Source: a virus | IMG/VR virus record: IMGVR_UViG_3300044729_002012 | Location: 1-40,898 of that record | Length of the DNA: 40,898 nt | Reading direction: 5' to 3' (one strand) | Part shown: positions 261-39,714 of the stretch, one piece after another | How positions within the stretch are numbered: the first letter of the stretch is position 1 | How the letters are laid out: the number at the start of each line of letters is the position of its first letter | The notes under the pieces: model-generated | Told to the model about the DNA's origin: nothing | Database searches by the model: none | Seen by the model: the letters and a program-made list of their open reading frames with translations, nothing else | Translations under genes and position numbers: made by a program

Positions 261-1136
261 TTATATGATCAATCCACCCGCAGTATAGGTGAACACGAAA
301 CGTAAACCGTTTTTCTTAGCACGCCCCTTGGCTTTCAACGCAACCAAGATCGGATTGTTGGACCAGTGATCTTCAATCATAAGATCGTCAAGGAACCTAT
401 TGTCGGACTTATCGCCATTTATGATGTTTACCATTCTACCATTTATTTCAATCGTTTTTTCCTTGATTATTCGTTTATGGCTTTCAACATCAAATACTAT
501 GGCGCAAGATGAACCGGTTCCATGGTTTTTAAAAAACATATGGGGTGTTACTTGTTCATCGCATGAAAACGTTAAGTGATAATTCCTAAACGGAACGTTT
601 CCATTCTGTTTTAACCATGAATCATAACGTGAAAGATCTTTAGTATAATCGTAAAACAATATTTCAGGGTTTAAAACTATCATGGTGTTCCATGATAGAT
701 CAGACGTTCCATTTAGTCGAATAACCGGCGAGAATTGTTTTTTCTGACAGTATAAATAGTGTTTTCTTATTTCAGATTGTAACGATTTTAAGAATGCTTG
801 TTTTTCGGCTAGCATATAGTGGGTCCGTTTCCATCTTGCGGTTTTAGTACCGTTTTTTTGTGTTCTTATCGTTTCCATTGCCATATGTCCCGATTCGCTT
901 AAGCATATTTTAGCACAATCGCCATGATTCGCGCACAAGTTAACACCTGATTCGTTAGCGGGTTGAAGATACAATATTTTAGTGAAATAAGTGGCATAAT
1001 CTTTCTTGGTTTTTACGCTAGTGGTTAAAAGTTTAGTCGCAAGCTTTCCACCATTTTCACGATATTCGTTCCATTCACGAATAACCTTATCGATAGCTGA
1101 TTCATTAGCGTTTTCAATCGTTTTGAGACTTAACAT
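261..1136 (-). CDS. GP88-like phage protein (function unknown)
   Basis: This 291-aa protein has the pattern of the mycobacteriophage 'gene product 88' family. It shows a cysteine cluster C-x5-C-x3-C (C68, C74, C78), then RLNGTSDLSW (about 139-148), a YDYTK motif near 162, NYHLTFS, an INGDKSDNRFLDD stretch near 238-250 and a C-terminal ALKAKGRAKKNG segment. Family membership is from memory of these motifs; the family has no assigned activity, and the cysteines could hold a metal. It is the last gene of the leftward left-end block and abuts the terminator. The start is set by the ATG at 1136 with AAGGA eight bases upstream, inside a repeated GGAATAGGATAAGGAATAG leader. Confidence 0.75.
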   Translation of the reverse strand: MLSLKTIENANESAIDKVIREWNEYRENGGKLATKLLTTSVKTKKDYATYFTKILYLQPANESGVNLCANHGDCAKICLSESGHMAMETIRTQKNGTKTARWKRTHYMLAEKQAFLKSLQSEIRKHYLYCQKKQFSPVIRLNGTSDLSWNTMIVLNPEILFYDYTKDLSRYDSWLKQNGNVPFRNYHLTFSCDEQVTPHMFFKNHGTGSSCAIVFDVESHKRIIKEKTIEINGRMVNIINGDKSDNRFLDDLMIEDHWSNNPILVALKAKGRAKKNGLRFVFTYTAGGLII

Positions 1137-1850: not shown

Positions 1851-2273
1851 TGTCTTGGTTCCTTGTTTCCTTGTTCCGTTCCCGTTCCAGTCGGTTAACC
1901 TTTCCGACAACATCATGCTAAGGATACCATCGGTTCATTACAACCCCAGTATCAAAGAATTCTATGGAATTATTTTCTACTGGTTAGGATACGCTTGTTT
2001 CGTAGTGGTTTTACGTTATTATTCTACAATATTAGTGGAATATTATCTTGTTTATTGGATTGTTGGATACCCACACAATAGAATTGTTTAACCAAGACTA
2101 GACTAGGGAAACGGGCTGAAAGCTTGAAACAAGTAAGTTTAACTAGGTTAAGAATATATCGGAAAGATAAGTGAAGATAAGAATAAACGGCTTTATATAA
2201 ATCCTATCATCTTGTTTTTTCTTTCAATGAGTCATCTTGTTTTTTTTCAAGATTGTTCCAATCTCGCTTTCCT

Positions 2274-2424
2274 TTACCTATTATGTTAGCCTATTGTTTT
2301 CATTATGTTAGCATATTGTTTTCTTGTTACCTATTCCAATACTACCATAGTTTACCTACCTTAAAAGTAGAATAATATTAATTTAATTAATAGGTAAAGA
2401 GTAGAATATTATTAGTATAGGTAA
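2274..2424. repeat. Cluster of TTACCTA heptamers in both orientations
   Basis: TTACCTA occurs at 2274-2280, 2327-2333 and 2352-2358 and its complement TAGGTAA at 2391-2397 and 2418-2424. The third and fourth extend to a perfect 8-bp inverted pair TTTACCTA / TAGGTAAA at 2351-2358 and 2391-2398, flanking AT-only DNA with the palindrome TTAATTAA at 2383-2390. The arrangement resembles iterons or operators around a melting region. The binding protein is unknown. Confidence 0.55.
2280..2323 (+). repeat. Tandem 22-bp direct repeat
   Basis: Two adjacent copies of ATTATGTTAGC(C/A)TATTGTTTTC at 2280-2301 and 2302-2323 differ at one base. They sit inside the TTACCTA cluster in the divergent control region, so they are likely part of the same regulatory or origin structure. 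Confidence 0.7.
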
Positions 2425-2544
2425 TAGGTTAGTTGGAGGAAAACAATAACGAAATCAAGGTACCCTGGTCTCTCACCTCTCCCTCTCTGACCTATTTTTC
2501 ATTCATCAAATAATAACAATTAATATTATCTATCATCATCTCTT

Positions 2545-2573
2545 TTGCACTATCTATCTTCGTCTGCTATACT
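2545..2573 (+). promoter_or_regulatory. Sigma70-type promoter for the structural operon
   Basis: TTGCAC at 2545-2550 and TATACT at 2568-2573 are separated by exactly 17 bases. Transcription would start near 2580, about 27 bases before the small terminase ATG. The spacer carries ACTATCTAT, a motif that recurs upstream of two leftward genes at the right end. Whether host sigma70 or the phage sigma factor reads it is not visible. Confidence 0.65.
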
Positions 2574-2606
2574 TTCTATTAATCACAGCCTCATCGAGTT
2601 CTACCA

Positions 2607-3077
2607 ATGGCAAAGAAACCAAAAGACGTTGCCATCTCCCCTGGACAGTCTGTCTATTCTCTAGTATCACGGCCTATCTCAACGATTCGTGATTCCGAGA
2701 TAGTGGATGCTCTCAAGGATTGCAAAGGTCTTATCTATTTGACAGCGATCAAGCTTGGTTGTTCTCATCCTGATCTCGACCAGCGTATCAAGGCTAACGA
2801 CAACCTCATGTTGATTTGCAAGGGTGAGCGTGGTGGTATTGTTGACAAGGCCGAGGCCAAGTTAGTTGAGGCGATGGAAGGTGGGGCCAAGTGGGCCATT
2901 GAGATGATTCTTAAGACGCTTGGTAAGGAGCGTGGATATGTTGAGCGTCAAGAGGTTCACAACCTCACCAAAGTTCAATTGCACATAGTCGAGGAGATAG
3001 TGGATCATGGAAGCTTCGACACCACCGCAACCATCGTTGACAACAAAAACAATCAAGCTCCACAAGGTCCAAAGTGA
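2607..3077 (+). CDS. terS: Terminase small subunit, HTH type
   Basis: This 156-aa protein should bind the packaging site and load the large terminase. The section around residues 38-65 (LKDCKGLIYLTAIKLGCS and after) matches the helix-turn-helix of phage small terminases of the KGLIYLTAxKLGCSHxTL type, and GxAKWAIEMILKTLGKERGYVER is a typical following segment of that group. It directly precedes and overlaps the large terminase, as expected. The ribosome site is weak (GAG nine bases upstream), so the ATG at 2607 is chosen because it follows the promoter at 2545-2573 by a short leader. Confidence 0.85.
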   Translation: MAKKPKDVAISPGQSVYSLVSRPISTIRDSEIVDALKDCKGLIYLTAIKLGCSHPDLDQRIKANDNLMLICKGERGGIVDKAEAKLVEAMEGGAKWAIEMILKTLGKERGYVERQEVHNLTKVQLHIVEEIVDHGSFDTTATIVDNKNNQAPQGPK

Positions 3078-4290
3078 ATTCAGACACTCTACATCTCTTT
3101 ATCGTGGGTTCGTTGGCGGTCGTGGTAGCGGCAAGTCATATGTTGGCGCATATGATCTTCTATGTCGTGCGATGTCAGAACGAGGCCGAGGTCGTCTCTA
3201 CATGGTGGTGGCCCCTACTTACATCATTCTGCAAGATGCTTCAATGAGGACCGTGGTTCAGATCGCGGAAGACCTTGGTGTCATCAAAGAAAAATGGAAA
3301 CAACCACCTCGCCTGATCTTGACAAACGGTTCTGAAATCATCTTCCGCTCTGGTGACGATCCAGAAAAGTTGCGTGGTCCTAACCTCTCTGGAGTGTGGC
3401 TCGATGAGGCCTCTCTGGTGGGCGAAGAAACCTACAACGTCTGTATCGCCTGTCTTCGAGAAGCCGGTCAAGCAGGATGGCTCTCTGCCACCTTTACGCC
3501 CAAAGGCACCTCTCATTGGACCTACGAAGTATTTGCCCGTAACAGGCCCAATACTGCCCTATTCCGCTCATCAACCAAAGAGAACCCATTCCTCCCTGGA
3601 GAGTTCATCCATGCTCTCCAGACGCAATATTCCGACAAGCAAGCAGCACAAGAGATCTCAGGCGAATTCGTTGACCAGGAAGGTTGCGAATGGCCTGCGG
3701 CGCACTTCACCGGGCACATCTGGTTCGATGAATGGCCCGACAACCGCCAAATCGCACTCAAGTCGATTGGCCTTGACCCATCCAAGGGGAACGACTCCAA
3801 GCACGGTGACTTCTGCGCCATCGTCAAATTGGCACGCACCATCGAAGGCATCATCTACGTCGAAGCCGATCTTCAACGCATCGACTCCGAATCTATCGTT
3901 TCAAACATTTGCAACGAACAACAACAATTCAACGCTGATGTGGTCGTAGTGGAAACAAATCAATTTCAACATTTACTTGCCACACAGATCATTGCAACGT
4001 CAAGAAAAAAAGGCATTTCAATGCCTGTCATGTCTGTTTACAATAAAGTTTCAAAGGATGTTCGCATTCGTCGTCTTGGCCCGAACCTTTCTAACAAGAT
4101 CTTCAGGTTCAAGGCCAATCACGAAGGTACTCGACTCCTGGTGAATCAATTGCGTGAATTCCCTATGGCAAAGTACGATGATGGACCGGATGCCTTGGAA
4201 ATGGCCCTGCGTGGTATGATTTCAATCCACAATGGACGTGTTCAGACTCAAGGCAAAGGTGCGACACCAACAAGAGGAATCCGATCATGA
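3007..4290 (+). CDS. terL: Terminase large subunit (ATPase-nuclease)
   Basis: This is the packaging motor: an N-terminal ATPase translocates DNA into the prohead and a C-terminal RNase H-like nuclease cuts it. Seen motifs are Walker A GGRGSGKS (37-44), Walker B GVWLDEAS (D133, E134), the coupling motif TFTPKG (161-166) and nuclease landmarks SIGLDPSKG (about 252-260), VVVVETNQF and a C-terminal DDGPDALEMAL. The length of 427 aa is normal for the compact class. The start overlaps the small terminase by 71 bases; it is the only good ATG before the Walker A. It overlaps the portal gene by ATGA. Confidence 0.95.
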   Translation: MEASTPPQPSLTTKTIKLHKVQSEFRHSTSLYRGFVGGRGSGKSYVGAYDLLCRAMSERGRGRLYMVVAPTYIILQDASMRTVVQIAEDLGVIKEKWKQPPRLILTNGSEIIFRSGDDPEKLRGPNLSGVWLDEASLVGEETYNVCIACLREAGQAGWLSATFTPKGTSHWTYEVFARNRPNTALFRSSTKENPFLPGEFIHALQTQYSDKQAAQEISGEFVDQEGCEWPAAHFTGHIWFDEWPDNRQIALKSIGLDPSKGNDSKHGDFCAIVKLARTIEGIIYVEADLQRIDSESIVSNICNEQQQFNADVVVVETNQFQHLLATQIIATSRKKGISMPVMSVYNKVSKDVRIRRLGPNLSNKIFRFKANHEGTRLLVNQLREFPMAKYDDGPDALEMALRGMISIHNGRVQTQGKGATPTRGIRS

Positions 4291-6470
4291 ATCCGTTATC
4301 AGCACAATGGTGGCGTTCCCTTCTCTCTGGACAGCCTGCCAAGCCACCGGAAGAACCAAAGCGCAAGAAGCGTTCGCTCCGTGAAGCCGCCTACAACATG
4401 GACTTCAACCTGGGCGGGTATTCTGACCTTCTTAGCAGGTTCACAGACGGTGGTGTTTACGCATATCCAATCGTTAACGTCAAGGATCGTCTGTACGGCT
4501 CGAACTACCCCTTCTGGTACTCAGAGCAGCAGTTGAACCTGATCAGGGCACAGGCACGCCTTCTTGTAACAACCAGCCCCAACGCACAAGGTCTTCTCAA
4601 TGGACTGACAAGCTACGTCATCGGCACCGGGTTCGGTTACAGGGTCATGCCGAGGGATGGGTATGTAATTGAGGACAGTCTTATCCTGAAGGTTCAGAAT
4701 GTCCTTCGTAAATTCTTTGATGACAACGAATGGGATCTGCTCGAACAGGAGATCTTCTTCCGGTCCAGAGAAGATGGTGAGTGCTTCCTACGCTATTTCC
4801 CGCAGCCATCTGGACGGTTGTTGATTCGCACCATCGAGCCTGAACAGATCTACCAACCACCAGGAAGCAACTTTGCCGAGTGGTCTTATGGCATAAAAAC
4901 AGAATTAGAAGACGTTTTCAGCGTCGAAGCCTACAACGTGGATTACGATGCCCCACTAGGCACGGATTCTGATTCCAACCGGGAAAGCAGAACCGGAGAG
5001 ATTGTTCCAGCAGCCGACATCGTCCACATCAAGTGCAACGTCAAGAAGTCAATTAAACGTGGTTTGTCTGACTTCTCTTACGAAACACTCGACACATTCA
5101 TCACTGCTGGAAAGCTTCGCAAGAATATGGGCGAAGGTGCCTCAGTCCAATCGGCAATCGCCGCTATTCGACAGCACGATACCGCCACTCAAGAGCAAGT
5201 CGAGGATTTTGTCACTGACAATATCGACTATTCAGCCTACACTGGGATTCCACTGCGTGAGACAGGATTCCAACGAATCGAGCCTGGTTCATTTCTGGAT
5301 ATTCCGAAAGGGATGAATTACGTTCAACCACCGGGTTCTGAGAACTATGAATCTCACCTGGCAATCTTCCAGTCGCTAATGCGTTCGGCAGGAAACCGCC
5401 ACAATGCCCCTGAGTGGCTTTCTTCGAGCGATGTGTCCAATGCCAACTATGCATCGAGTTTGACGGCTGAAAGCCCATTTCTGAAGAACTGTATGCGGTT
5501 GCAGGCGATTTACAAGCGCCACTTCGGCAAGATTGTCCGTGAAGCTATCCTGACCGCTGCCGAGGCAGGGATGCTTCCTATGGGCATTGTGGATGCCATC
5601 GATGTCATTGTGACACCACCAAACGTGGAAGCCCGTGACAGAATTGCTGAATCCACGGCAAACCGCACCTATTACGAAATGAAGATCAAGAGCAGCCAAA
5701 CCATTACCCAAGAGCTTGGCCTTGATTCGGAACAAGAACGGCGCAACATGGAGCTTGAGAAAGACCAGGAAGACAAGCTCAACGCATCCGATGTTATGGG
5801 TGGCGATATGGCTCAGATCTCTGATCAGGCTCTCAATGGACTTCAAATTGAGAACCTAGTGGGCATCGTTACCCGCGTCGCTGCTGGACAGTTGACCGTG
5901 GAAGTGGGCCGTGCGGTGGCTCATGCCGCCTTCCCATTGATGAATGTGGCGCAGATTGCTGACATCTTCCCTGATAGCCTTTACCGCAGTGCAAAGGCCG
6001 CACCAGCAATGACGGGTGAACCCAAGGCTGTCACAGACCTGCCATCTGTTGGACAGTCCAAGGCGGAACCAACGCTCCCAGAAGAGCCACCAGAACCAGA
6101 AGATCCAGAAGGCGTTGCAGAATCGATTACGGAAGGCGAAGGTAAATACTCGCACATAAGCTTCAAACCGCCATCAGGAGCGGTTAAAGCCGCCAAGAAG
6201 GGCTTAGAATTGCGAAGAGAACATGGTCGTGGTGGAACGTCTGTGGGAATTGCCAGGGCGAGAGATATCGCAGGCGGCAAAGAAATGAGTCCTTCCACAG
6301 TCAAAAGAATGTTTTCATTCTTCTCCAGGCATGAGGTCGATAAGAAGGGCGAAGGCTGGGGCGAAGACTCGAACGGCTACATCGCATGGCTCTTGTGGGG
6401 TGGCGATGCAGGCTTCTCATGGTCTAGGAAGGTCAGGAACCAAATGATTGCGGCAGACAAAAAGAAATGA
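4287..6470 (+). CDS. Portal protein with an extra C-terminal phage domain
   Basis: This 727-aa protein should form the dodecameric ring at the capsid vertex. The N-terminal part (to about residue 530) has lambda-type portal character: YPFWYSEQQLNLIRAQARLL, LLNGLTSYVIGTGF, SREDGECFLRYF and a long stem/crown region. A Pro/Glu-rich linker (about 585-615) leads to a separate module at 620-727 with GLELRREHGRGGT, SVGIARARDIAGG, FFSRHEVDKKGEGWG and AWLLWGGDAG. I know this module from other phage proteins, where it is often separate or fused to head proteins; its role is unknown. ATG at 4287 overlaps the terminase stop (ATGA) and has AGAGGA upstream. Confidence 0.88.
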   Translation: MNPLSAQWWRSLLSGQPAKPPEEPKRKKRSLREAAYNMDFNLGGYSDLLSRFTDGGVYAYPIVNVKDRLYGSNYPFWYSEQQLNLIRAQARLLVTTSPNAQGLLNGLTSYVIGTGFGYRVMPRDGYVIEDSLILKVQNVLRKFFDDNEWDLLEQEIFFRSREDGECFLRYFPQPSGRLLIRTIEPEQIYQPPGSNFAEWSYGIKTELEDVFSVEAYNVDYDAPLGTDSDSNRESRTGEIVPAADIVHIKCNVKKSIKRGLSDFSYETLDTFITAGKLRKNMGEGASVQSAIAAIRQHDTATQEQVEDFVTDNIDYSAYTGIPLRETGFQRIEPGSFLDIPKGMNYVQPPGSENYESHLAIFQSLMRSAGNRHNAPEWLSSSDVSNANYASSLTAESPFLKNCMRLQAIYKRHFGKIVREAILTAAEAGMLPMGIVDAIDVIVTPPNVEARDRIAESTANRTYYEMKIKSSQTITQELGLDSEQERRNMELEKDQEDKLNASDVMGGDMAQISDQALNGLQIENLVGIVTRVAAGQLTVEVGRAVAHAAFPLMNVAQIADIFPDSLYRSAKAAPAMTGEPKAVTDLPSVGQSKAEPTLPEEPPEPEDPEGVAESITEGEGKYSHISFKPPSGAVKAAKKGLELRREHGRGGTSVGIARARDIAGGKEMSPSTVKRMFSFFSRHEVDKKGEGWGEDSNGYIAWLLWGGDAGFSWSRKVRNQMIAADKKK

Positions 6471-7519
6471 TTGATGCCCCGCTATTTATTGCCAACACGG
6501 AAACCACCTTGAGATCCATCGCATTTGCGACCAAGGTGGTCAGAACCATCGATAGGAAGCACAAGGAAGCACTCCTATCCTTGGACCGCAACAAGTTCGG
6601 GTCGAACTTTGAATACGAAACCATGTCGGTTTTTGCTGCCATCATGCGCTTGGTCAGCCATGACGCTCCAGCATTGATCAAAAAGCACTATAACGAAATT
6701 ACAAAGATCATTTCGGACAAAATTGAACACACGGTGATGGAAGCAAGATCGAAGATTGCCACCACGGTGTTTCCCGACTTATCCGCACAACAAGTGTCTC
6801 TTATTGTGGCTAATCAGCAGATACCGCAGAAGATTTACAACGCATTGAAGAGGAGTGGGTCTTCACCGAGGCAAATCGCCAGCATGATTGCCATCATGGG
6901 CAATCCAGCGGAGCGGCGTAGGCTTCTGGATGATTACTTTAGAAGGCTCAGAAATGCCGCCTACACGTCCGTTCGTACGGGAATGGCCTCAATGGCTGGA
7001 CAAGTCAATCGAGAGGTTTACGACTCAATTCCTGCGGATGTGATCGGATTTCAGGTTCTAGGCATACTTGACAATCGCATCAGGCCTGCACACAGGGCGA
7101 GACATGGCACCATCTACTACAAAGTGCCTGGCGTGGGCCGACCAGGGTTTGAGCAGATGCCAAACCCGCCACTCGAGGCCGATGGCAGCTATGCTTTCAA
7201 TTGCCGATGTTCTTTAATTCCAGTCTTTAAAGGCGATGACACAAAAGCCAGGGATATCCGTGGAAGAATAATTCCAAACGCCAAAGTCTTTTCTGTGTGG
7301 TTCGATAGGCAGACAGAGGCGGCGAAAATTGCAATTGTTGGGAAAAAACGCTACATGGCAGCGGTAAGTCGCAAAGGTGGTGGCTCACCCAACTGGATTG
7401 AGTTCTTGGACAGCAAAACCGGAATACTCATGACAGATAAAGAAATAGAAAATGAGACAAGGACAAAAAGAAAAAATAGAATAGCAAGACTTTACTCAAA
7501 AATTTCTATGAACTCTTGA
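6467..7519 (+). CDS. Mu gpF-like head morphogenesis protein
   Basis: This 350-aa minor head protein probably sits inside the prohead at the portal. The diagnostic segment is about residues 195-255: VLGILDNRIRPAHRARHGTIYY, then a proline-rich stretch, then YAFNCRCSLIPVF, matching the conserved Arg/His and NCRC motifs of the Mu gpF/SPP1 gp7 family. The start overlaps the portal stop codon (ATGA), and the order portal then gpF-like then protease is standard. The C-terminal 60 residues are very basic and lie in DNA more AT-rich than the rest of the gene. Confidence 0.88.
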   Translation: MIDAPLFIANTETTLRSIAFATKVVRTIDRKHKEALLSLDRNKFGSNFEYETMSVFAAIMRLVSHDAPALIKKHYNEITKIISDKIEHTVMEARSKIATTVFPDLSAQQVSLIVANQQIPQKIYNALKRSGSSPRQIASMIAIMGNPAERRRLLDDYFRRLRNAAYTSVRTGMASMAGQVNREVYDSIPADVIGFQVLGILDNRIRPAHRARHGTIYYKVPGVGRPGFEQMPNPPLEADGSYAFNCRCSLIPVFKGDDTKARDIRGRIIPNAKVFSVWFDRQTEAAKIAIVGKKRYMAAVSRKGGGSPNWIEFLDSKTGILMTDKEIENETRTKRKNRIARLYSKISMNS

Positions 7520-8916: not shown

Positions 8917-9408
8917 ATGAGCGCCAATTTCGGTGGATCTCGATTTGTACAACCGCCACTCACACGCACCGTGGTCTATAAGGCCAAGGGTGGAATTGTG
9001 ATTAGCGTAGGCGACCTGATGTATTACGACTCTGGCGATGGCTATGCCAAGCCTTTGTCGGAAAAGGTCGCCTCTGGCACTGTGAATACCGATCAGGTGT
9101 TCGTGCATGATAACTTTATCGGTGTGGCTCAGTCTGGGCGCATCGTACAGCAGACCACAGATGGCACGGTGACGATTGCCACCGATTGCATCTACGAAGC
9201 AGCCTGTGAATCACAGACGTGGGTTCCTGGCGCTCTGGTAACTGGTTTTTCTAGCGGCACTGCTGCTGCCGGAGCAATCCAAGACCAAAAAGTTGACGCA
9301 ACCGCTTTGGCAGCAGAAGCCATTGGTGTTGTTGTCAAGCAATACACTGCCGCAACCACAACGGTTTGGGTTAGGCTTTACGGTAAAGCCGCTCGCCAGG
9401 TGTTCTAA
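8917..9408 (+). CDS. Putative capsid decoration protein
   Basis: This 163-aa protein has no motif I can name. It is rich in Val, Thr, Ala and Gly with alternating polar and nonpolar residues, so mainly beta structure, and contains GGIVISVGDLMYYDSG and IGVVVKQYTAATTTVWVRLYG. Its position between scaffold and major capsid is where head decoration or stabilising proteins lie in siphophages. The ribosome site is AAGGAG eight bases before the ATG. A strong, well-spaced ribosome site suits a protein made in many copies. Confidence 0.6.
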   Translation: MSANFGGSRFVQPPLTRTVVYKAKGGIVISVGDLMYYDSGDGYAKPLSEKVASGTVNTDQVFVHDNFIGVAQSGRIVQQTTDGTVTIATDCIYEAACESQTWVPGALVTGFSSGTAAAGAIQDQKVDATALAAEAIGVVVKQYTAATTTVWVRLYGKAARQVF

Positions 9409-9435
9409 TTTAAGATCAATAAGGGGGAAAGTACC

Positions 9436-10782
9436 ATGGGCATTGACGTAGTGAAGATGAAGTCTCTGTACGAATCACGCAAAAAGGACTCGGGTGGCCG
9501 ACTGCGCTTCATTAACGAGTTGCGCCATGGTCTTGGCCTCTCGGACTCTAACGGGTCTGATTACAAGGACTTGGCTGGTAATAAGCAACTTCGTGAACGT
9601 GAAATGGTTGCTGAGAACTTCAGCCTGGCAGAATTGGCAGAGGCCTGCGTTGGCGGAAGCTGGCGCACTCTGTTCGATCCAGACAACCGAGAAATGGGAC
9701 GTTACCTTCGTGCCAAGTCTTTGGTGGAATCTGGTTTCCCAAATGACAGCCGAGCCTTGCTGGAAAGTACTGGTATCGGTATCGATCCTTCGAGCTTTGC
9801 GGACATCAACGCATTCACAAGCGTTGTTGGCGGTCTGATCGAAGTTAAAATTCTTGAAGCTTTCCAGAACCCAGCTTTGATTGCTGACCAGATTTGCCCC
9901 GCTGAGGCCACTCGGCTCAACGGTCAGAAGGTCATCGGCGTTCAGTCGATTGGTGACCGTGGTCGTCAACGCAAGCCCGGCGAACCTCATGCACGCGCCC
10001 AGTTCGGCGAGCGTTGGATTGAAACGCCTGAAACCCGTGAGAACGCTCTTGCTATCGACGTTCTCAAAGAAGCGGTGTTCTTCGATCTCACCGGGCAGAT
10101 CCTTCAGCAGGCTGCTTCGGTTGGTCTTGAGCTTTCTTACCGCAAAGAACTCGAAGTTATCGACACCATCATCGGTGTTAATAACAGCTTCAAGTACAAC
10201 GGCACGGCGTACAACACCTACGTCACGTCGAAGACCTTGGGCTACACCAACAGCATCGTCAACCCTCTCTTGGACTGGACATCGATCCAGACGGACGTGT
10301 TGCAGTTCATGCGTCAGGAAGATCCACATACGGGCAAGCGACTGCTGCTCAATCCTAACACTGTGCTGGTAAACCCAGGCAGGTTGGCGACCATGAACCT
10401 GATCTTGGGTTCAACCGTTACTGATCGTCGTACTGCGCCATCGGGCAACCAGTCCACGGCGACCACGCTGAACATCTCCAGCACCCCTGGCAACCCTTAC
10501 TCAGGCAACTTCAAGGTTCTCACCAGCCCGTTGTTTGAACAACGTGCCTTGGCTGCGGACGGATTGAACCTGAACCAGGACAATGCCGATGGCCTGTGGT
10601 TCATGATGGAAGCTGGCAAGAGTTTCCGTTACATGCAGAACTACCCTCTGGCCGTGGTCCCAGCGACCTCGAATCAGTACGAAATGCTCGATAAGGGCAT
10701 CATTGCGACCTACTTCGCTCATGAGCGTGGGATTCCTTCGGTGTGGTCACCTTGGCACACCCTCAAGAACACTGCGAGCTAA
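9436..10782 (+). CDS. Major capsid protein
   Basis: This 448-aa protein occupies the major capsid place, straight after protease/scaffold and decoration candidate, with a strong AAGGGGGAAAG ribosome site. The first 110 residues are basic, helical and probably a cleaved delta-like domain. Later features fit an HK97-type fold: a long helix near 245-265, FMRQEDPHTGKRLLLNPNTVLVNP-type text around 300-325 (split here only for description), LTSPLFEQRALAADG and YPLAVVPATSNQYEMLDKGIIATY near the end. The HK97 fold is inferred from position and these patterns, not from a named motif. A 284-aa open frame on the opposite strand is a shadow. Confidence 0.85.
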   Translation: MGIDVVKMKSLYESRKKDSGGRLRFINELRHGLGLSDSNGSDYKDLAGNKQLREREMVAENFSLAELAEACVGGSWRTLFDPDNREMGRYLRAKSLVESGFPNDSRALLESTGIGIDPSSFADINAFTSVVGGLIEVKILEAFQNPALIADQICPAEATRLNGQKVIGVQSIGDRGRQRKPGEPHARAQFGERWIETPETRENALAIDVLKEAVFFDLTGQILQQAASVGLELSYRKELEVIDTIIGVNNSFKYNGTAYNTYVTSKTLGYTNSIVNPLLDWTSIQTDVLQFMRQEDPHTGKRLLLNPNTVLVNPGRLATMNLILGSTVTDRRTAPSGNQSTATTLNISSTPGNPYSGNFKVLTSPLFEQRALAADGLNLNQDNADGLWFMMEAGKSFRYMQNYPLAVVPATSNQYEMLDKGIIATYFAHERGIPSVWSPWHTLKNTAS

Positions 10783-31076: not shown

Positions 31077-31413
31077 CTTCCAAAGCCTCCATAATGGAGA
31101 GAAGAACCCTGATCTTCTTGGATGCGGATTTCACATCCTTGATGCCATTTTCCCAGCTAGACTTGGGTCGGATCAGGTTGTTTGCCGCTCGCATCGCAAT
31201 CATAGCCATCGCGAATCGCAGGCGAAGTCCAAACAAATCGCCGACAATTCTTTCTATATTCATTACAGAAAATGGTTCGCCTTCATCAGCCTGATCGATG
31301 AAATCGAATGTCTCACGGGTATTCACATCAGTAGCAGTTAAATCGTCAATTAATTTGCCGAATTTATCGACGAATGCGCTGTTGCTCTCGTCAGCATCTT
31401 CTTTGTCATCCAT
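31012..31413 (-). CDS. Acidic hypothetical protein
   Basis: The start at 31413 (MDDKEDADESNSAF) is preferred over one ten codons upstream, since it overlaps the primase stop by eight bases. The 133-aa chain has an acidic head, a helical middle (VGDLFGLRLRFAMAMIAMRA) and a strongly acidic C-terminus (DDDDDSEDENTTEDSE). It could be a DNA-mimic or a replication accessory protein, but I see no identifying motif. It follows the primase-helicase in the operon. Confidence 0.5.
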   Translation of the reverse strand: MDDKEDADESNSAFVDKFGKLIDDLTATDVNTRETFDFIDQADEGEPFSVMNIERIVGDLFGLRLRFAMAMIAMRAANNLIRPKSSWENGIKDVKSASKKIRVLLSIMEALEDESDEDDDDDSEDENTTEDSE

Positions 31414-33427
31414 TTGGTGGCCCCGCCAGGTATGATTCCCCATGGAGAGTATATCGTTTCACGCTGCTCCCGTTGATCAAATCTTTTGCTGCCTGTTCTG
31501 TGCAGCCATGCCTGGTTAGCGATGCAATCACATCCACCTCTCGGCGGAAAAACCCCGTGGTAAGGAACGTGAGCAGTCCAGCAAGGGATGGGTTACCAGC
31601 AGGAGCAGCCGTAGCGGCCACCAAAGGCCTATAGTGTGCGCCGGAATCATGCATCGTCGAAATCAATTGTGGCGGTAGTTTTGAATTCGATTTCTCGACA
31701 AATATAAGCCTTTCATCAGGTGCTAAATCTGGGTTGGTTGCAGGGCCAACAATGCGGATTAGCTGACGAACCTGGCCGACGATGCGCCGCCCCAATGCCT
31801 GCCCCTCTTTGGACAGGTGAGTGATTAGCACGATCACACAATTGCGCTCTGAGGCGATCCGCATTAACGGCACAAAGAATTTAATTGCGTCTTCAGGCTT
31901 CATGGTGCCGTGGCTAGTTGCGTTCATTGCCGAATCGACAAACACCATGTCGATGCCATTGCGCTCAATTCTTGCGGATAGTTCAGTAAACTGTGCTGCG
32001 GTATCAAGGATAGTGCCCTGTGTAGGGTCATCATTCCAGGCATTGAGAACAATGTTCTCTGGAGGAATGCCAAATGCCATAGGGATCTCAGCTATCTCAC
32101 CCCACTGTCCATCACAAGGCATCCACAGGATTTTTCCGCCCGGTGGCAGGGTTGCCGGTGATCCATCCGGCCACACATCTCCATTGATCACCCTGCGAAT
32201 CAAATCGGCCACAAACCTCGTCTTCCCAACTCCAGGTTCAGCAGCAATTGAAACCAGGGCACCACGCTGCATCCATCCCGGCCAGATCCATTGCAGAGTT
32301 TTCCCTAGCCGGATCAAATCGGCAGCACTTGCGTCAGATCGATTTTGAGGGCTTGAAATTGTCTCAGGAGACTGTTTGACAACAGAAGTGGCACTCTTTG
32401 CCAACAAGTGGCCAACTCGGCTAGGATCGGCCTTTTTGACCGCTTCCCGAACCTTGTGATCGATTTCAGCGTCCGACCATGGTGGAAGGCAGGTTTGATT
32501 CCATTCGTGCAGCAGTGTTGTTGATTCACCCGCATCAAGCCCAAACCCTTCTACGCACAGCATTGCGGCTCGATAAGTGCGACTGTGTCCACCTTCTCCA
32601 GATACCGCCCCAGGCACTTTGCTCAAGTATGCCCTTGCTGCTTCTACAGGGGATCTGTTTGCACCGGGAGACTTTGTTGCTGACCAAGCCTCCATCATTC
32701 TCCGCATGGACTGCACGTTACCGGGGCGAGATGCGAGAATCTCACTCAATGGTGGGCGTGGTCTAATCTGTGTGGTCCGATGTGGACGCTCTGCGCTAGA
32801 TTCACCCTTCCGTGATCGAGTGCCATACAGTCTGGTTAGCCGGGGAGCATCGTGTGTAATCGTGTCAATTTTGACTCCTGATAATGTCACATGCGTGGAC
32901 AGCCCCTCAAGAAAAGACTTGACCAAGACACTGCCAGCTTCGTCATTTGGGAGGTCTATTGGTACAAGCAGGTGGCAACCATTACCAGAATCGCCTTCGA
33001 CAACTCCACGAAAACCAAATGTTTGAAGATTGAGCGCAACGTCTGCTGCTAACTGATGGGCACGGAATCGCTCTGAGTCTGTCGCCGAAGTATCCGATTG
33101 TCGATCTGGATCGCAGTCAATTAAAATCCACTCTCGTCGAACGACATCAATCGCTTCCGCACTCACCACCCTAGTCAGAAATGGTGTTCGTCTACCCTGA
33201 TTTCTGTTAATAAACTCAGGCGGCAATGGATTCATAATCCAGTAGATGCCACCATAAATCTCAGGGTGAGACTCTAGTCGTGAAACAGCAAGTTCAAGTT
33301 CTTGGTATTGGTCAGCACGGTAATACTGATTGCGAGTATATTTCTCGCCATCCCTAACGAAAAAAGCCCGAACCTCTGTTACCTGAGATTCAGGCAGGAT
33401 GTCCACCATCCATGACAATGAATTCAT
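31406..33427 (-). CDS. AEP-type primase with RepA-like helicase
   Basis: This 673-aa protein combines two replication activities. The N-terminal primase of the archaeo-eukaryotic type shows ILIDCDPDR (101-109, metal ligands) and DSGNGCHLLVPIDLP (146-160), with RLTRLYGTRSRKG near 196-208, as in prophage primases. Residues 265-335 look like a PriCT-type linker (PPWSDAEIDHKVREAVKK). The C-terminal ATPase has Walker A AEPGVGKT (396-403), Walker B VFVDSA (D498) and a THLSKEG motif. It would prime and unwind at the phage origin. AAAGGTG precedes the ATG. Confidence 0.85.
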   Translation of the reverse strand: MNSLSWMVDILPESQVTEVRAFFVRDGEKYTRNQYYRADQYQELELAVSRLESHPEIYGGIYWIMNPLPPEFINRNQGRRTPFLTRVVSAEAIDVVRREWILIDCDPDRQSDTSATDSERFRAHQLAADVALNLQTFGFRGVVEGDSGNGCHLLVPIDLPNDEAGSVLVKSFLEGLSTHVTLSGVKIDTITHDAPRLTRLYGTRSRKGESSAERPHRTTQIRPRPPLSEILASRPGNVQSMRRMMEAWSATKSPGANRSPVEAARAYLSKVPGAVSGEGGHSRTYRAAMLCVEGFGLDAGESTTLLHEWNQTCLPPWSDAEIDHKVREAVKKADPSRVGHLLAKSATSVVKQSPETISSPQNRSDASAADLIRLGKTLQWIWPGWMQRGALVSIAAEPGVGKTRFVADLIRRVINGDVWPDGSPATLPPGGKILWMPCDGQWGEIAEIPMAFGIPPENIVLNAWNDDPTQGTILDTAAQFTELSARIERNGIDMVFVDSAMNATSHGTMKPEDAIKFFVPLMRIASERNCVIVLITHLSKEGQALGRRIVGQVRQLIRIVGPATNPDLAPDERLIFVEKSNSKLPPQLISTMHDSGAHYRPLVAATAAPAGNPSLAGLLTFLTTGFFRREVDVIASLTRHGCTEQAAKDLINGSSVKRYTLHGESYLAGPPNG

Positions 33428-33436
33428 ACGTCACCT

Positions 33437-33784
33437 TTATCCAATATCAGAATCAGCATCCGCATCCATGGCATCGTACGAGTAGTCATCCGTTGGATGC
33501 GCCACTTGCCTATTTTTGTTTTCTCGCTCCGTTGAAACGATCCGCATTTCATGGAATCGTTTCATATTCTCAGCGACAAGCCAGTCATTGATCACGGACG
33601 CTGCGACATAAACAATTCGACCAATGATGACTGTGGGAATCCTGCCTTCCCCAATCCATTTTTTAAGGTGATTAGGTGAGAGGAACGAGAGCATTTTGCA
33701 AAAGGCAGGTCGAATCAACGACTCGCCATCGGCAGCACGTTGTAACGTGAGGCGAACCCAATGCTCTCGTTCCTCAGAATCCAT
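33437..33784 (-). CDS. HTH DNA-binding protein (MerR/excisionase-like)
   Basis: This 115-aa protein has a winged-helix-like stretch LSPNHLKKWIGEGRIPTVII then GRIVYVAASVINDWLV near 35-70, typical of short MerR-like or excisionase-like DNA-binding proteins that read a site next to a tyrosine recombinase or act as local regulators. No integrase is visible here, so regulation or replication support is more likely. The acidic end (DAMDADADSDIG) is Asp-rich. It lies between primase-helicase and the DUF669-like gene. Confidence 0.6.
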   Translation of the reverse strand: MDSEEREHWVRLTLQRAADGESLIRPAFCKMLSFLSPNHLKKWIGEGRIPTVIIGRIVYVAASVINDWLVAENMKRFHEMRIVSTERENKNRQVAHPTDDYSYDAMDADADSDIG

Positions 33785-33790
33785 AATCTA

Positions 33791-34297
33791 TCAACCGAAT
33801 GGGTTATCGTCGGGTTCAGCAGCGTCACCAAGTTCGACAGGTCTTGCACGAAGACTGATGAAATTGATGTTGTGGTAGACCTTGCCGTCCTTGGCAGTAG
33901 AAGAGCGTTTGCGAACCGTGGCGTGAACTCCCTTGAGTGTTGGCCCCGACTCCGAAAAGCCCTGTGCAAGGCCAATGTTCTTGGTTTTCCACTCATCGAC
34001 CTGAACACCAAGAAGCTTAAGCTCGGCCCCAAGGATGTTGATACCAACCGAGTTGCGGAAGAAGGTCGTCTTCTCGGTAAGGCATCCATGATTGCCTGGA
34101 CCATCGATGATCTTCATCGTGATCCGGTGGATCGGCTCGCCAGTCGATGTCAATTGCGTTAGCTCGCATTTGACAATTTCAACACCGTACTCGCCATCGG
34201 CCATGCCGTCTGTGCGGACGAACTGAGTCGCCTCTGGTTTGAATTCAGCTTGATACTGCTGAAGAATCTCGTCTGCCCATGCCCAATCATTGCTCAT
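33791..34297 (-). CDS. DUF669-like ssDNA-binding candidate
   Basis: The ATG at 34297 has AGGAGG and a clear spacer; a start at 34318 gives a longer, less likely form. The 168-aa product begins MSNDWAWADEILQQYQAEFK and has DGEYGVEIVKCELTQLTSTG, FRNSVGINILGAELKLLG and a C-terminal DDNPFG. The pattern matches the phage DUF669 group, and the acidic DDNPFG end is SSB-like. It would bind ssDNA and partner replication or recombination proteins. It is next to UvrD-like helicase, which fits. Confidence 0.65.
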   Translation of the reverse strand: MSNDWAWADEILQQYQAEFKPEATQFVRTDGMADGEYGVEIVKCELTQLTSTGEPIHRITMKIIDGPGNHGCLTEKTTFFRNSVGINILGAELKLLGVQVDEWKTKNIGLAQGFSESGPTLKGVHATVRKRSSTAKDGKVYHNINFISLRARPVELGDAAEPDDNPFG

Positions 34298-34301
34298 GAT
34301 C

Positions 34302-35834
34302 TCAACCCTCCTGTCCACTTCGGGACATCTGACGTAACCACTCGCTGGTTTCGGGGCGCTTTGATTTTGCCCCTTCTGCCAGCACCAGGCGATGTTTTGA
34401 CCTAGTCAAGGCGACATAGGCCAAGTTCATCTCTTGGATCGTTGATTCCTCGTTCCCGCCTTTGCGGCCGAGGATGTGCGGATGCAAAATGTAGACACTA
34501 TTTGCTTCCGAACCTTTGCTTCTGTGAATCGATGAAAGAATGACTTTCTTACTCTCATCAATATCGTCTGCGAACATTCTATCGATTGCTTCCATCAACT
34601 GCCCAACATTTTCGTTGGAATTTGCGAGAATTCCAATGCAGTTACACTGATCTGTGTGTGCTTGAATTGCCGAATCAGAAGCATCACGTTCAATCAATTT
34701 ATCCATATTGACCTGTCGATAGTTCGCAATTTTGCGAATCAGATCTGGAATGCTGGTTGGGAACAGCTTCTTGATCAAACCTGTCAAACCGTCACCAATT
34801 GACCGTCCACGGATAGTGGCTGGTACATTGTTTGAGATTAACTGATACGTCAGTGAAACCAGTGGCGCATTGGACCTACAGATCACTAGATCACCCGGCA
34901 AAACCATTCTTGGTAATGCTGCCTCGACTGTCTCTTCGTACTCTCCACGGGGGGCATTAGGTCTGTTTTGAATGTCTGGAACCAAGTGCCTGGCCAAGTC
35001 TAGGTGGCTCACGGGGCATCTCCAGCAGGTGGACAACGGGAACTCAGTCGCATTGAGTTCTCGACGCAGGGTGTTGAACGACCTTGCGTCAGCACCAGCA
35101 AATAACATAATAGATTGATGTGGATCGCCGACAAACATGATGCGTGGCGACAAACCCATAACAAGCTGCTGTTGGGCGCGATTGAAATCTTGAGCCTCAT
35201 CTGCAATCAGAAAATCATATTGGTGCGCCACAAGGCCCAAATATGATGGAGCAGACACCATGTCCGTGTAATCCACGGTTTGCATCTGCTCAAGACCAAT
35301 CTTGACGATGTTGCGAACCATCGAAAGCATCTCGTCAAAGCTGGACATGTGTGGTGGGAATTCCCACCCTTGCAGGTCGCAAGCCTTGATTATTTGTTTT
35401 CGCACAGGCGCTTCATCACCTTCAAAACTTGCAAGTTCATTGCGGAAAATATCGATGAGCTTGTTGATGCCGGAAAAACTTTTGTGCAGTTTATCCCGGT
35501 GATCAAAAGCCTGCGGGTAAAGTTCCTTCAGGATCTTGAAGTACTTCTTGCCATCGACCTCTCCAACGCCTGGGATCTTTGACCTGAGCGTTGAGAAACC
35601 CACACTGTGAAGCGTTGCTGCCCGTGCAGACAATCCAAGCCTGCTTTGTAGCTCTGCGGCAATGTGCTTATTGAAAGCAACAAAGCCTACATTTTTCTCA
35701 TTACTGACACACTTAGCTGCTGCGACAGCCGTGGTGGTCTTGCCCGATCCAGCAAGGGCACGAACCGCAATATGTTTCCGCTTTGCACGAACGTAATCGT
35801 AAATCGCTTGCTGCTGCTCTGTTGGAACACTCAT
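34302..35834 (-). CDS. UvrD/PcrA-like superfamily 1 helicase
   Basis: This 510-aa helicase shows Walker A LAGSGKTTT (27-35), DEAQDFN (motif II, near 215), VGDPHQSIM and FAGAD (motif III/IV), SIHRSKG (motif V) and VALTRSKHRLVL (motif VI). It should unwind DNA 3' to 5' using ATP and is shorter than host UvrD (about 720 aa), as phage versions usually are. It would support replication fork progress or recombination. AAAGGATATTGAA precedes the ATG. Confidence 0.88.
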   Translation of the reverse strand: MSVPTEQQQAIYDYVRAKRKHIAVRALAGSGKTTTAVAAAKCVSNEKNVGFVAFNKHIAAELQSRLGLSARAATLHSVGFSTLRSKIPGVGEVDGKKYFKILKELYPQAFDHRDKLHKSFSGINKLIDIFRNELASFEGDEAPVRKQIIKACDLQGWEFPPHMSSFDEMLSMVRNIVKIGLEQMQTVDYTDMVSAPSYLGLVAHQYDFLIADEAQDFNRAQQQLVMGLSPRIMFVGDPHQSIMLFAGADARSFNTLRRELNATEFPLSTCWRCPVSHLDLARHLVPDIQNRPNAPRGEYEETVEAALPRMVLPGDLVICRSNAPLVSLTYQLISNNVPATIRGRSIGDGLTGLIKKLFPTSIPDLIRKIANYRQVNMDKLIERDASDSAIQAHTDQCNCIGILANSNENVGQLMEAIDRMFADDIDESKKVILSSIHRSKGSEANSVYILHPHILGRKGGNEESTIQEMNLAYVALTRSKHRLVLAEGAKSKRPETSEWLRQMSRSGQEG

Positions 35835-35851
35835 TTCAATATCCTTTCTTA

Positions 35852-36112
35852 TTAGATCTTACCATCACGAATGTTTTGCAAATCAAAACCTTTCGCTAGT
35901 CTTGTGATGCGAACATATTCGCCACTTCCATCTTCGCTAAGTGTTTGATCTGTGACATGTAGTTGCTCACAGTTCATGCAACCCCAAGCGCGCTCAACAA
36001 CCCCTCTGATTGGGAAAATACCACGATGGCAAGCACTATTGCATTTTATGCAACGTGGTCCCCAAGCCCATTTTTCTTCTGCCGTAATATGCCGCACTGA
36101 AACATCACTCAT
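35852..36112 (-). CDS. Small zinc-ribbon protein
   Basis: The start is the ATG at 36112, preceded by AAGGAG; an upstream in-frame ATG lies inside the previous gene. The 86-aa product begins MSDVSVRHITAEEKWAWGPR and has two CxxC pairs, RCIKCN and CMNCEQ, separated by 26 residues, the layout of a zinc ribbon or knuckle. It lies between the recombinase candidate and UvrD-like helicase. Likely a nucleic-acid-binding adaptor; that is inference. Confidence 0.6.
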   Translation of the reverse strand: MSDVSVRHITAEEKWAWGPRCIKCNSACHRGIFPIRGVVERAWGCMNCEQLHVTDQTLSEDGSGEYVRITRLAKGFDLQNIRDGKI

Positions 36113-36113
36113 G

Positions 36114-36821
36114 TCATACTCCTTCTTTGTTAAGCCATTCCAAAACACGATTCGCCATTTCCGCCTCAAGATTCACTAGGTCTGTAACACCAAATTCTTC
36201 ACTGATTGCTTTAGCTACAGACTTAGGTGGCAATCCAGAAGCCTTAACCTTGCGAGCAAATGCATCACGCAGGTGATCACGCAGGTTCGGCGTAGGTGGC
36301 TCAGATTTGACCGGCACCACATTGGTTTTGATCTGTGGCGTATCCTGCACTTCCGATTCATCGAGCCATCCGAGGCCGCACAGCGACAACGTGCATCGAC
36401 GTTTAGCCTTGGTCATCGCCCGCATCCTGGCATTGGCGAGATCAATTCCCTTGAGGCCTGCAACATACACATCGCCTCGGTCAATGTCTCTCCGCCCATC
36501 CTTGGCTTGCATCGTAACTATTACGGAAAATATGTCGTCTTTGAATTCCTCACGCATTTCAACTAGTGAAACTCCATGGATGGAACGCAACTGGTCAGCA
36601 CAGTTCCTCTGTGCGTACATTTTCTCGCTACCATCACGCTGCTTATAAAATCCGAATGGCTGGGTATAAGGATTCAGCCCCAGGCTTTCGCAAACACGCT
36701 TGTAGAGCGCAACCTTATCGTCGGCGGAAAGACGACCGTAATCGTTTTTCATCAAAGCGTGTTCAACAGCCTCTCCCATGCCATACTGCCCAGACGCAAC
36801 CAATCCCTTCTCATCTACCAT
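36114..36821 (-). CDS. Putative ssDNA-annealing recombinase
   Basis: The ATG at 36821 is chosen because AAGGAG is then seven bases upstream; one at 36827 leaves only one base. The 235-aa product has YKRVCESLGLNPYTQPFGFY (near 40-60), like the LxxCxxxGLNPxxxPF element of Bet/RecT-type recombinases, and later NARMRAMTKAKRRCTLSL, CGLGWLDESE, a pattern of phage recombination proteins. It should anneal ssDNA for recombination-dependent replication. The family call is moderate because RecT hallmarks are few. Confidence 0.55.
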   Translation of the reverse strand: MVDEKGLVASGQYGMGEAVEHALMKNDYGRLSADDKVALYKRVCESLGLNPYTQPFGFYKQRDGSEKMYAQRNCADQLRSIHGVSLVEMREEFKDDIFSVIVTMQAKDGRRDIDRGDVYVAGLKGIDLANARMRAMTKAKRRCTLSLCGLGWLDESEVQDTPQIKTNVVPVKSEPPTPNLRDHLRDAFARKVKASGLPPKSVAKAISEEFGVTDLVNLEAEMANRVLEWLNKEGV

Positions 36822-36843
36822 ATCCATACTCCTTTTTCTTAGA

Positions 36844-37155
36844 TCAGATCAACTTTTCGGAACGAATGATACGAACACGTTTGGGTGCGAGCAGTCGTAG
36901 TGCTGCTCGCTCACCGGCTAGGTCATCGAGGGTAATTACGACCATCGCTGGTCGGTCATCGCTCGGCCCAGGCACTTCGATTGACTGTCCAATGGAGAGG
37001 GTGAACTCAACATCACGCACACGAATAGTTGCTTCACGATCTGTGACCACAAGGGTTTCCAGAAGGATGTCCTGGCAACCCTCCCACCTCATGACGATGT
37101 TCTCGCCCACCTGCCGAATTAAACTAAGCCCACCATACCTGTTAAAAATCGTCAT
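36844..37155 (-). CDS. CsrA-like RNA-binding protein with internal insert
   Basis: This 103-aa protein has the two edges of CsrA: residues 10-22 LSLIRQVGENIVM, like E. coli LILTRRVGETLMI, and 70-103 MVVITLDDLAGERAALRLLA then PKRVRIIRSEKLI, like [20 protein letters not shown] then VHREEI. R14 and R98 fall at the RNA-contacting Arg6 and Arg44. An insert of about 47 residues lies between the first strand and the rest. CsrA proteins bind GGA in leader hairpins and block or stabilise mRNAs. Start: ATG at 37155 by TGATG; ATG 37158 is possible. Confidence 0.5.
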   Translation of the reverse strand: MTIFNRYGGLSLIRQVGENIVMRWEGCQDILLETLVVTDREATIRVRDVEFTLSIGQSIEVPGPSDDRPAMVVITLDDLAGERAALRLLAPKRVRIIRSEKLI

Positions 37156-37634
37156 CATTTCCCTTCCTTCTTCTGCTTTTTCTTCAACATCCGTGCCCGA
37201 GAAACCAAAGCAGCTTCCAGGCGCTCTAAGGAAAATCCTATCCTGTTCCAGCCGATCACCTTAAAAATGTGGCTGATTTCTGGTGGTATATTCATTTCCT
37301 CGATGTGCGTCACGAATTCTGGGTTCGTGATATCCAGCAAGAATTCTACCACCTTGCAAGGGCTTTGGCGCAGGTTTGTTTCGTCGGAAACGTATGACAC
37401 TAGAAAAAAAGTCAGATCTTCCATTTCTATACCACGGCAGGACAGACCTGCAAGCAGCCTCATTACCCCTTGCATATCCCAGTTGCCTGCCGAAATAACC
37501 AACAAATTATATTCGCCGTTATTGATTTCTCCGCCGTCATATGCACGTTTAAACCGTGCTTCCAATTCCTCTCGCAGTGCTATGCTACTACCCATGCCGC
37601 CTTCGATATACTCTTTGGCTAGATCATTGGACAT
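37155..37634 (-). CDS. Hypothetical protein upstream of the CsrA-like gene
   Basis: This 159-aa protein has a strong ribosome site (AAAGGAGGTGCGCT) before the ATG at 37634. It begins MSNDLAKEYIEGGMGSSIAL, is mostly helical with patches of hydrophobicity and ends basic (RARMLKKKQKKEGK). I recognise no family. It overlaps the CsrA-like start (ATGA), so the two are co-translated. Confidence 0.6.
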   Translation of the reverse strand: MSNDLAKEYIEGGMGSSIALREELEARFKRAYDGGEINNGEYNLLVISAGNWDMQGVMRLLAGLSCRGIEMEDLTFFLVSYVSDETNLRQSPCKVVEFLLDITNPEFVTHIEEMNIPPEISHIFKVIGWNRIGFSLERLEAALVSRARMLKKKQKKEGK

Positions 37635-37658
37635 AGCGCACCTCCTTTATTCATTATC

Positions 37659-37817
37659 CTATCGTACCAATCGCAACACAACCTCACCATGAGGCCTGTC
37701 GTTATCATATGATAGCCTGATCTCTGCTTCTGTCCTAGACCGAGGCGAAGGTGCCACGGTGCAACCGCAAATCAGGCTAGCAGCAGCAATCAAAACAATG
37801 CGGAAAATCTTCATCAT
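37659..37817 (-). CDS. Small lipoprotein (52 aa)
   Basis: Reading left from the ATG at 37817 gives MMKIFRIVLIAAASLICGCT, a signal peptide with basic start, hydrophobic core and a lipobox-like ICGC, then a short Ser/Pro/Arg-rich mature part ending LVLRLVR-like at TAG 37659-37661. AGGAG lies five to eight bases before the double ATG. It would be anchored in a membrane. Phage lipoproteins of this size include outer spanin subunits and superinfection-exclusion proteins; which is unclear. Its leader hairpin is unusual. Confidence 0.65.
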   Translation of the reverse strand: MMKIFRIVLIAAASLICGCTVAPSPRSRTEAEIRLSYDNDRPHGEVVLRLVR

Positions 37818-37824
37818 TCCATCT

Positions 37825-37852
37825 CCTGTGGGATTATTCCCACAGGTTTTTT
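37825..37852. promoter_or_regulatory. 9-bp hairpin at the lipoprotein ribosome site
   Basis: CCTGTGGGA TTAT TCCCACAGG is a perfect 9-bp stem with a four-base loop. On the + strand it is followed by TTTTTT, a standard terminator for rightward transcripts. On the leftward transcript it comes right before the lipoprotein start, and its arm runs into the AGGAG ribosome site, so it could hide that site. Either function is possible; the sequence also holds AGGA and GGA, which CsrA-like proteins bind. Confidence 0.6.
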
Positions 37853-37859
37853 ATCGACA

Positions 37860-38144
37860 TTAGTCGTGTGTGTGACTGAGAGTTTCTTGAAATGTCACAC
37901 GGCTTTCCAGGCTTGCAACCCGTGCAACCAGTGCATTCAGAGCGTCGATGAAACGCTGCTTTGCTGCACTCGGACCAGGTTTTCTACCCCTCTTGTCGCC
38001 CTTCGGCCACGAAGCAGATTCTGCCTGCACCGGATTAGATCTTGGGTCAGGAAGCCTGCCCAACTTAATTTGGTAGATAACTGCATTACGGGTTTTCCCG
38101 AAATGCTTCGCAAGCTCATCAATCGTAGAAATCATCGTCATCAT
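37860..38144 (-). CDS. HTH plus coiled-coil DNA-binding protein
   Basis: The start is the ATG pair at 38144/38141, preceded by AGGGG. The product of about 94 aa has IDELAKHFGKTRNAVIYQIK, a helix-turn-helix, a Lys/Arg-rich middle (PKGDKRGRKPGPSAAKQRF) and a leucine-rich coiled coil (LNALVARVASLESRVTF). It is probably a transcription regulator of this operon or the divergent control region. It overlaps the previous gene by 26 bases. Confidence 0.6.
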   Translation of the reverse strand: MMTMISTIDELAKHFGKTRNAVIYQIKLGRLPDPRSNPVQAESASWPKGDKRGRKPGPSAAKQRFIDALNALVARVASLESRVTFQETLSHTHD

Positions 38145-38340
38145 GAGTCCCCTTCGTGATCGCTTCAAAGAATCCAACTAATGCTCTGGCATCAGCAATC
38201 ATTCTATGATTTTCTGGGTTACTGGCAACTAATTCGGAAAATAATTTTTTCGACAAACATCGTAATTTCCAGAGCATCGTTTTGCTCCAAAAGCATGGTG
38301 TGCCTGCGTCACCATGCTGCTCACGATAATAGTTCTTCAC
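38119..38340 (-). CDS. Small hypothetical protein with GTG start
   Basis: A GTG at 38340 overlaps the sigma factor stop codon (GTGA). The 73-aa product is (M)KNYYREQHGDAGTPCFWSK, then basic helices and an acidic tail (HDDDDFYD). I recognise no motif. It is translation-coupled to the sigma factor and precedes the HTH gene; a partner of the sigma factor is possible but not shown. Confidence 0.5.
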   Translation of the reverse strand: MKNYYREQHGDAGTPCFWSKTMLWKLRCLSKKLFSELVASNPENHRMIADARALVGFFEAITKGTHDDDDFYD

Positions 38341-39692: not shown

Positions 39693-39714
39693 ATCAATCT
39701 CCATTCCTAGTAGG

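Follow-up and report, generated by a model that had tools for sequence, protein, structure and literature searches.

A palindromic array of TTACCTA sites in the divergent control region of an uncultivated tailed phage

The intergenic region between positions 1917 and 2606 of the viral record analysed here is a real control region, conserved within its lineage, of a known, ordinary kind and itself undescribed. It carries a symmetrical array of repeated words, which has a unique place in the genome and which related phages have retained in a changed arrangement. We infer protein binding of the array and its transcriptional effect, and name candidates for the binder; judging from sequence, there is about an even chance that the stretch 2274–2448 is an operator array controlling divergent early and late transcription. 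We favour this reading over that of a replication origin.

The divergent region and its surroundings

The window, which is the whole viral record of 40,898 bp (40.9 kb), comes from a tailed phage that has no close isolates. Positions 1900–6500 gave no match by blastn against 50,697 phage records, nothing matched in a DNA search against annotated phages and plasmids, and the best identity of TerL to named phages was about 26–27%. A search for the host with terS and TerL in 85,000 bacterial and archaeal genomes returned none. Relatives were obtained by a TerL search of IMG/VR, in which seven records were about 98% identical in the head genes and others were at 79%, 47% and below; the alignment query added L054 and L055 (TerL 65%). 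The main elements of the layout, taken from the ORF list and the sequence, are as follows.

1917–2606, no strand: divergent intergenic control region; the layout recurs in L013, L017, L054 and L055
2607–3077, plus strand: presumed terS, just before terL, the name being inferred from position only
3007–4290, plus strand: TerL, first module of the late operon (phrog_2, E 2.6e-36)

Rightward late genes start with the presumed small terminase gene at 2607, for which family searches gave no family match, and continue with the large terminase gene from 3007. Leftward genes fill 261–1916 and 31406–40511; those beside the region are 1728–1916, 1252–1533 and 261–1136, and the set at 31406–40511 includes a sigma-like factor (38337), a UvrD-type helicase (34302) and an AAA_25 primase-helicase-like protein (31406). 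The region had been predicted to be a divergent control region, and this was borne out: oppositely transcribed blocks flank it, the rightward one being the terS/terL operon of late virion genes, repeated sites are found at the same place in relatives, and the layout recurs at 98, 79 and 65% TerL identity. Its left limit may lie at about 1851, if the leftward ORF 1728–1916 starts at the internal ATG 1848–1850, where the ribosome-binding site looks better.

Several other features were recorded on the left side. Gene 261–1136 (minus strand) encodes a GP88-family protein (PF17338) with a CxxHGxCAKxC motif and homologues in Pelagibacter phages; L013 and L017 also have a GP88-family gene on the left of their control regions, at just 36–40% identity. 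Runs of (GT)n occur at 1552–1568 and 1709–1724, immediately upstream of small leftward ORFs. In L012 the leader that immediately precedes the first leftward gene is duplicated: positions 81–192 match window positions 1862–1977 at 70% identity, and the leader includes a GTCGG...CCGAC hairpin and GGAAC repeats.

The record is incomplete between 40898 and 1, where several kb are missing, judged from L028 and L013. Positions 1–201, at the contig start and just past the end of the GP88 gene, are a G/C-rich tandem array of CGCGCCACTACCGCACG-like units, which is probably the point where the assembly broke. Similar sequence is found in L013 near 4930–4990, and other G/C-rich arrays are present in the divergent region of L054 and L055. 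The missing part, read by eye in L028 and L013, holds rightward genes whose products resemble QueE, a DpdA-like protein and also a RusA-like resolvase; this set suggests 7-deazaguanine DNA modification.

A palindromic cluster around the most AT-rich DNA of the record

Five TTACCTA heptamers, three forward and two reverse, had been reported within 150 bases; they were found in 151 bp, at 2274–2424. The sites and the elements associated with them are listed here.

2274–2280, plus strand: heptamer 1, present in most relatives; in L012 and L013 its position differs by one 22-bp unit
2280–2323, plus strand: 22-bp tandem repeat, two copies; single copy in L012 and L013, degenerate in L009
2327–2333, plus strand: heptamer 2, its TACCTA core identical in seven of seven aligned sequences
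2352–2358, plus strand: heptamer 3, from word search and alignment
2391–2397, minus strand: heptamer 4, forming 8-bp inverted arms with heptamer 3
2418–2424, minus strand: heptamer 5, from word search
2314–2448, no strand: imperfect palindrome of about 135 bp, centred near 2382
2360–2419, no strand: lowest-GC 60 bp of the record in a GC scan (15% GC), at the palindrome centre
2482–2501 (about), plus strand: 20-mer TCTCTGACCTATTTTTCATT, exact in L017, containing another ACCTATT

The cluster holds five of the seven TTACCTA copies of the record, the other two being at 13094 and 13591; the expectation for both strands of 40,898 bp is 2.3. When 2000 order-1 and 2000 order-2 Markov sequences were generated from the local 756-bp region, TTACCTA clusters never exceeded three, and if any heptamer was allowed, five copies in 151 bp came up once per 2000 sequences. 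The 22-bp tandem repeat (2280–2301 and 2302–2323) was likewise confirmed, with 21 of 22 positions identical. The perfect 8-bp arms described around heptamers 3 and 4 are present (TTTACCTA at 2351–2358, TAGGTAAA at 2391–2398), but the core between them is not AT-only as claimed: 28 of its 32 nucleotides are A or T, with CC at 2359–2360 and G at 2368 and 2370.

Further elements had been missed by the original prediction. The word GTAGAATA occurs at 2367–2374 (plus), 2401–2408 (plus) and 2020–2027 (minus); these are its only three copies in the whole record, and L017 has two. Additional ACCTA variants lie at 2425 and 2489. The palindrome itself had also been overlooked; its outer arms are TATTGTTTTC at 2314–2323, part of the 22-bp repeat, and GAAAACAATA at 2439–2448. 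A profile of the region matched its own reverse strand with E=3.9e-4 in the window and 1.5e-4 in L013. Self-complement scores against dinucleotide shuffles reached z 3.5 in the window, 4.1 in L009, 2.6 in L011, 5.5 in L013 and 3.1 in L017; they were unclear in L012 (z 1.6) and L014 (z 0.1), where the palindrome is not significant. Together, the reverse-strand match and these scores indicate that the cluster belongs to an imperfect palindrome of about 135 bp, the single-strand folding of which is weak (z −1.26).

The collection was also scanned with two patterns. The extra contigs found with TTACCTATTNNAATANTANCATAG, L063 and L064, were chance matches within a coding region; ATTCTACTYYYTACCTA returned 18 further contigs without shared genes, the best five of which look like chance matches.

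The array and the putative late promoter in related phages

All six near-identical relatives that reach the region (L008, L009 and L011–L014) have kept the cluster. In these and in the window, the interval separating the leftward genes from the late promoter is the one place where the array was located. It lies on the divergent side: identity to relatives is 97–100% from 2487 rightward and 40–90% on the left, a drop which places the region across the junction of a conserved late module with a left side that diverges. In a random-placement test on the close relatives the heptamers were not better conserved than neighbouring bases (p=0.175), partly because shifted heptamer copies are misaligned.

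More distant phages have retained the array in other forms. In L017 (TerL 79%) the words are present between the leftward GP88-family gene and the rightward genes, rearranged and partly inverted: the 21-mer AATATTCTACTCTTTACCTAT is common to both sequences but inverted in L017 relative to the late genes, and a profile of the array matches L017 on the opposite strand (E 0.02). The 20-mer TCTCTGACCTATTTTTCATT adjoins the array there with unchanged orientation. At the corresponding position, L054 and L055 carry an AT-rich, palindromic cluster (self-complement z 5.1 and 6.1). In the equivalent spacer of L055, TCTTAATA is found five times within 193 bp, and the 22.8 kb searched contained one further copy. 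The position and symmetry of the array are thus conserved; the number, orientation and spelling of its sites are not. Such a pattern, fixed in place and changing in its sites, suggests a protein-binding array rather than promoter hexamers.

In the sense of an invertible segment, the term 'switch' used in the original prediction finds no support: the segment has the same orientation in seven of seven aligned near-identical sequences, partial inversion being seen solely in the more distant L017, and a scan of part of the ORFs turned up no recombinase.

Three further elements lie between the array and terS.

2457–2478, no strand: G/C-rich stretch that varies among relatives, flanked by conserved GGAGGAAAAC and CTCTCCC
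2487–2606, plus strand: block with coding-gene-level conservation (97–100%) in the alignment, belonging with the late operon
2545–2573, plus strand: putative late promoter TTGCAC-17-TATACT, with a TG-extended −10 (TGCTATACT) and a weak −35

The predicted promoter-like site is present, with TTGCAC at 2545–2550 and TATACT at 2568–2573, but such sites are not above shuffled expectation: a consensus promoter scan of the region gave 8 sites compared with 9.5 in shuffles. The promoter sequence is invariant among the relatives aligned, and L054 and L055 carry TGCTATTCT instead of TGCTATACT. The order of elements is common to the relatives, L054 and L055 included: GGAGGAAAAC, the variable G/C-rich stretch, CTCTCCC and the extended −10. 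By eye, a clean hairpin in the G/C-rich stretch was seen in L055 only (TGAGCCTGG-AAG-CCAGGCTCA) and is not conserved.

Possible functions and known systems

In the reading that we favour, the palindromic array of TTACCTA and GTAGAATA at 2274–2448 would serve as an operator with several sites, to which a DNA-binding protein encoded by the phage would bind. Several copies of the protein, occupying the two halves of the dyad, would bend the AT-rich DNA or bridge it, and would hold the late promoter (2545–2573), the leftward promoter or both in one state early in infection; later the protein would release or activate the promoter that it held. This reading draws on the position of the region between divergent blocks, the weak −35, the existence of a phage sigma-like factor and the parallel with PL1 of phage SPP1. 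Sites that are independent of orientation and respelled between phages also point to a co-evolving DNA-binding protein rather than to −35 and −10 hexamers. Several observations count against an operator: the nearest heptamer is about 120 bp from the late −35, which is far for a simple activator; the placement test gave p=0.175 and the palindrome is not significant in L012 and L014; and the same anatomy would also suit an origin.

It is plausible, from the sequence, that a phage protein recognises the array, and there are two candidate binders.

33437–33784, minus strand: small winged-HTH protein, candidate binder, encoded directly upstream of the primase-helicase; HTH_17 match below cut-off
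38337–38930, minus strand: sigma-factor-like protein, candidate late-transcription factor (phrog_351, E 1.4e-11), with a counterpart in the genome of L055

Protein 33437 is predicted to form a winged helix (pLDDT 80); its nearest folds are BldC and RdfS, neither match being significant (best E 0.23). It has a weak syntenic counterpart in L073, which is from the genome of L055, at 24–30% identity and directly upstream of the primase-helicase. For the HTH protein 37860, also proposed originally, no counterpart was detected in the L055 phage, a phage that does have an equivalent cluster. L073 carries two tandem sigma-like genes (9196–10234, minus strand), compared with one in the window.

The region had also been proposed to be a replication origin. 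The heptamers and palindrome would then be iteron-like initiator sites and the 15%-GC core an unwinding element, opened by an HTH protein with the primase-helicase; we consider this possible but unlikely. The repeats, the AT maximum of the record and the dyad symmetry agree with it, as do the location of the HTH gene 33437, which in two genera directly precedes the primase-helicase gene, and the make-up of SPP1 oriL and oriR, which are direct repeats with an AT-rich unwinding element (PMC6316719). Against an origin, the region has neither a DnaA box (3 in the record, 4.7 expected) nor an IHF-type site. Iteron origins are initiator-bound arrays of direct repeats of about 17–22 bp, whereas here one variable 22-bp unit is present in one or two copies and the heptamers are of mixed orientation at spacings of 25–53 bp. 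Next to the sites, positions 2360–2419 would provide an AT-rich unwinding element, and similarly AT-rich DNA is found in the other divergent region of these genomes. GC skew at four-fold sites of rightward genes is −0.20 over 2.6–10.8 kb and +0.05 far away, the reverse of the leading-strand expectation, although codon preference may also cause skew.

A far stronger origin-like element lies in that second divergent region, which is about 0.9 kb past the right end of the window and lacking from it. Very large DNA stem-loops, with fold z of −10.6 and −10.5, are present at L028 5015–5280 and L073 12150–12420; their G/C-rich arms measure roughly 60–75 bp and are about 90% complementary, and the loops are AT-rich. 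The two genera have them at the same genomic position and, by inspection, they seem to share no sequence similarity; they are a strong candidate for the replication origin. Stem-loops of conserved structure have been proposed as the origins of pRN1-type primase-polymerase/helicase replicons and of some phages (PMC4234260). The phage primase-helicase would be a protein of this kind; its Prim-Pol match sits below cut-off, and its predicted structure (pLDDT 47) is too poor for use. A would-be array in the second divergent region, ACCTATTATTAATACTATAATAG of L028, was rejected: it fits only a pattern made from itself, and an nhmmer profile of the array did not recover it at E<5.

Alternatively, the words could be parts of several overlapping promoters, read by host sigma-70 or by the sigma-like factor of the phage, and there would be no dedicated operator. 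The region is divergent and AT-rich, the late promoter is conserved, and one TACCTA-16-TATTCT arrangement lies on the minus strand of the region and recurs upstream of the late genes in L054 and L055. We nevertheless judge this distinctly unlikely: that spacing was found once and is absent at the other heptamers, the orientation and spacing of the words differ between the window and L017, and matches to consensus promoters are no commoner than in shuffles. Also improbable is a combined element, in which one initiator/regulator on the palindrome would start early theta replication and silence the late promoter, fork passage or loss of the protein would switch the virion genes on, and the binding word would change between genera with the protein.

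A packaging (pac/cos) signal adjoining terS, cut within the variable G/C-rich stretch, would suit the position just upstream of the presumed terS and the conserved flanks of that stretch; it is very improbable, as contigs L008, L009, L011–L014, L054 and L055 read through the stretch, no contig end examined falls there, and the stretch lies outside the TTACCTA array. Chance build-up of words in an AT-rich spacer would agree with sites conserved no better than their surroundings in close relatives, and is hardly credible with a frequency of about 1 in 2000 under local composition even for any heptamer, a 21-mer common to L017 and an equivalent cluster in L055.

For this uncultivated phage group, which lacks a close isolate, an early/late control region is now mapped, together with a testable binding word whose spelling differs between genera and which is useful for studies of regulator/site co-evolution. 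The search for the replication origin is redirected to the stem-loop element outside the window.

Several known systems can be compared with this region. Like pRN1-type replicons, the phage has a primase-helicase-like protein, and its relatives have such a stem-loop element; unlike a pRN1-type origin, the palindrome studied here folds weakly, and the stem-loop is in the other divergent region of L028 and L073. As in SPP1 oriL and oriR, repeats adjoin an extremely AT-rich core, but those of SPP1 are direct, whereas the phage sites form a dyad and a stronger origin candidate exists elsewhere in relatives. Operators of winged-HTH proteins of the BldC/RdfS kind are also AT-rich multi-site DNA, and a related fold is predicted, weakly, for 33437. 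The repeats bound by BldC, AATTXXXX(C), are direct and contiguous and run head to tail (PMC5859096). The phage heptamers, in contrast, occur in both orientations, at spacings of 25–53 bp.

SPP1 transcribes almost everything from one strand and, unlike the region described here, its late promoter region is not divergent; we know of no palindromic repeat array described at PL1 or PL2. The likeness is in the late promoter itself, putative in the phage studied here, which in both cases lies directly before the terminase genes (in SPP1, PL1/PL2 before gene 1, terS) and combines a poor −35 with a recognisable −10. In PL1 the −10 is canonical and the −35 atypical, and late transcription in SPP1 needs an early factor (PMC6316719).
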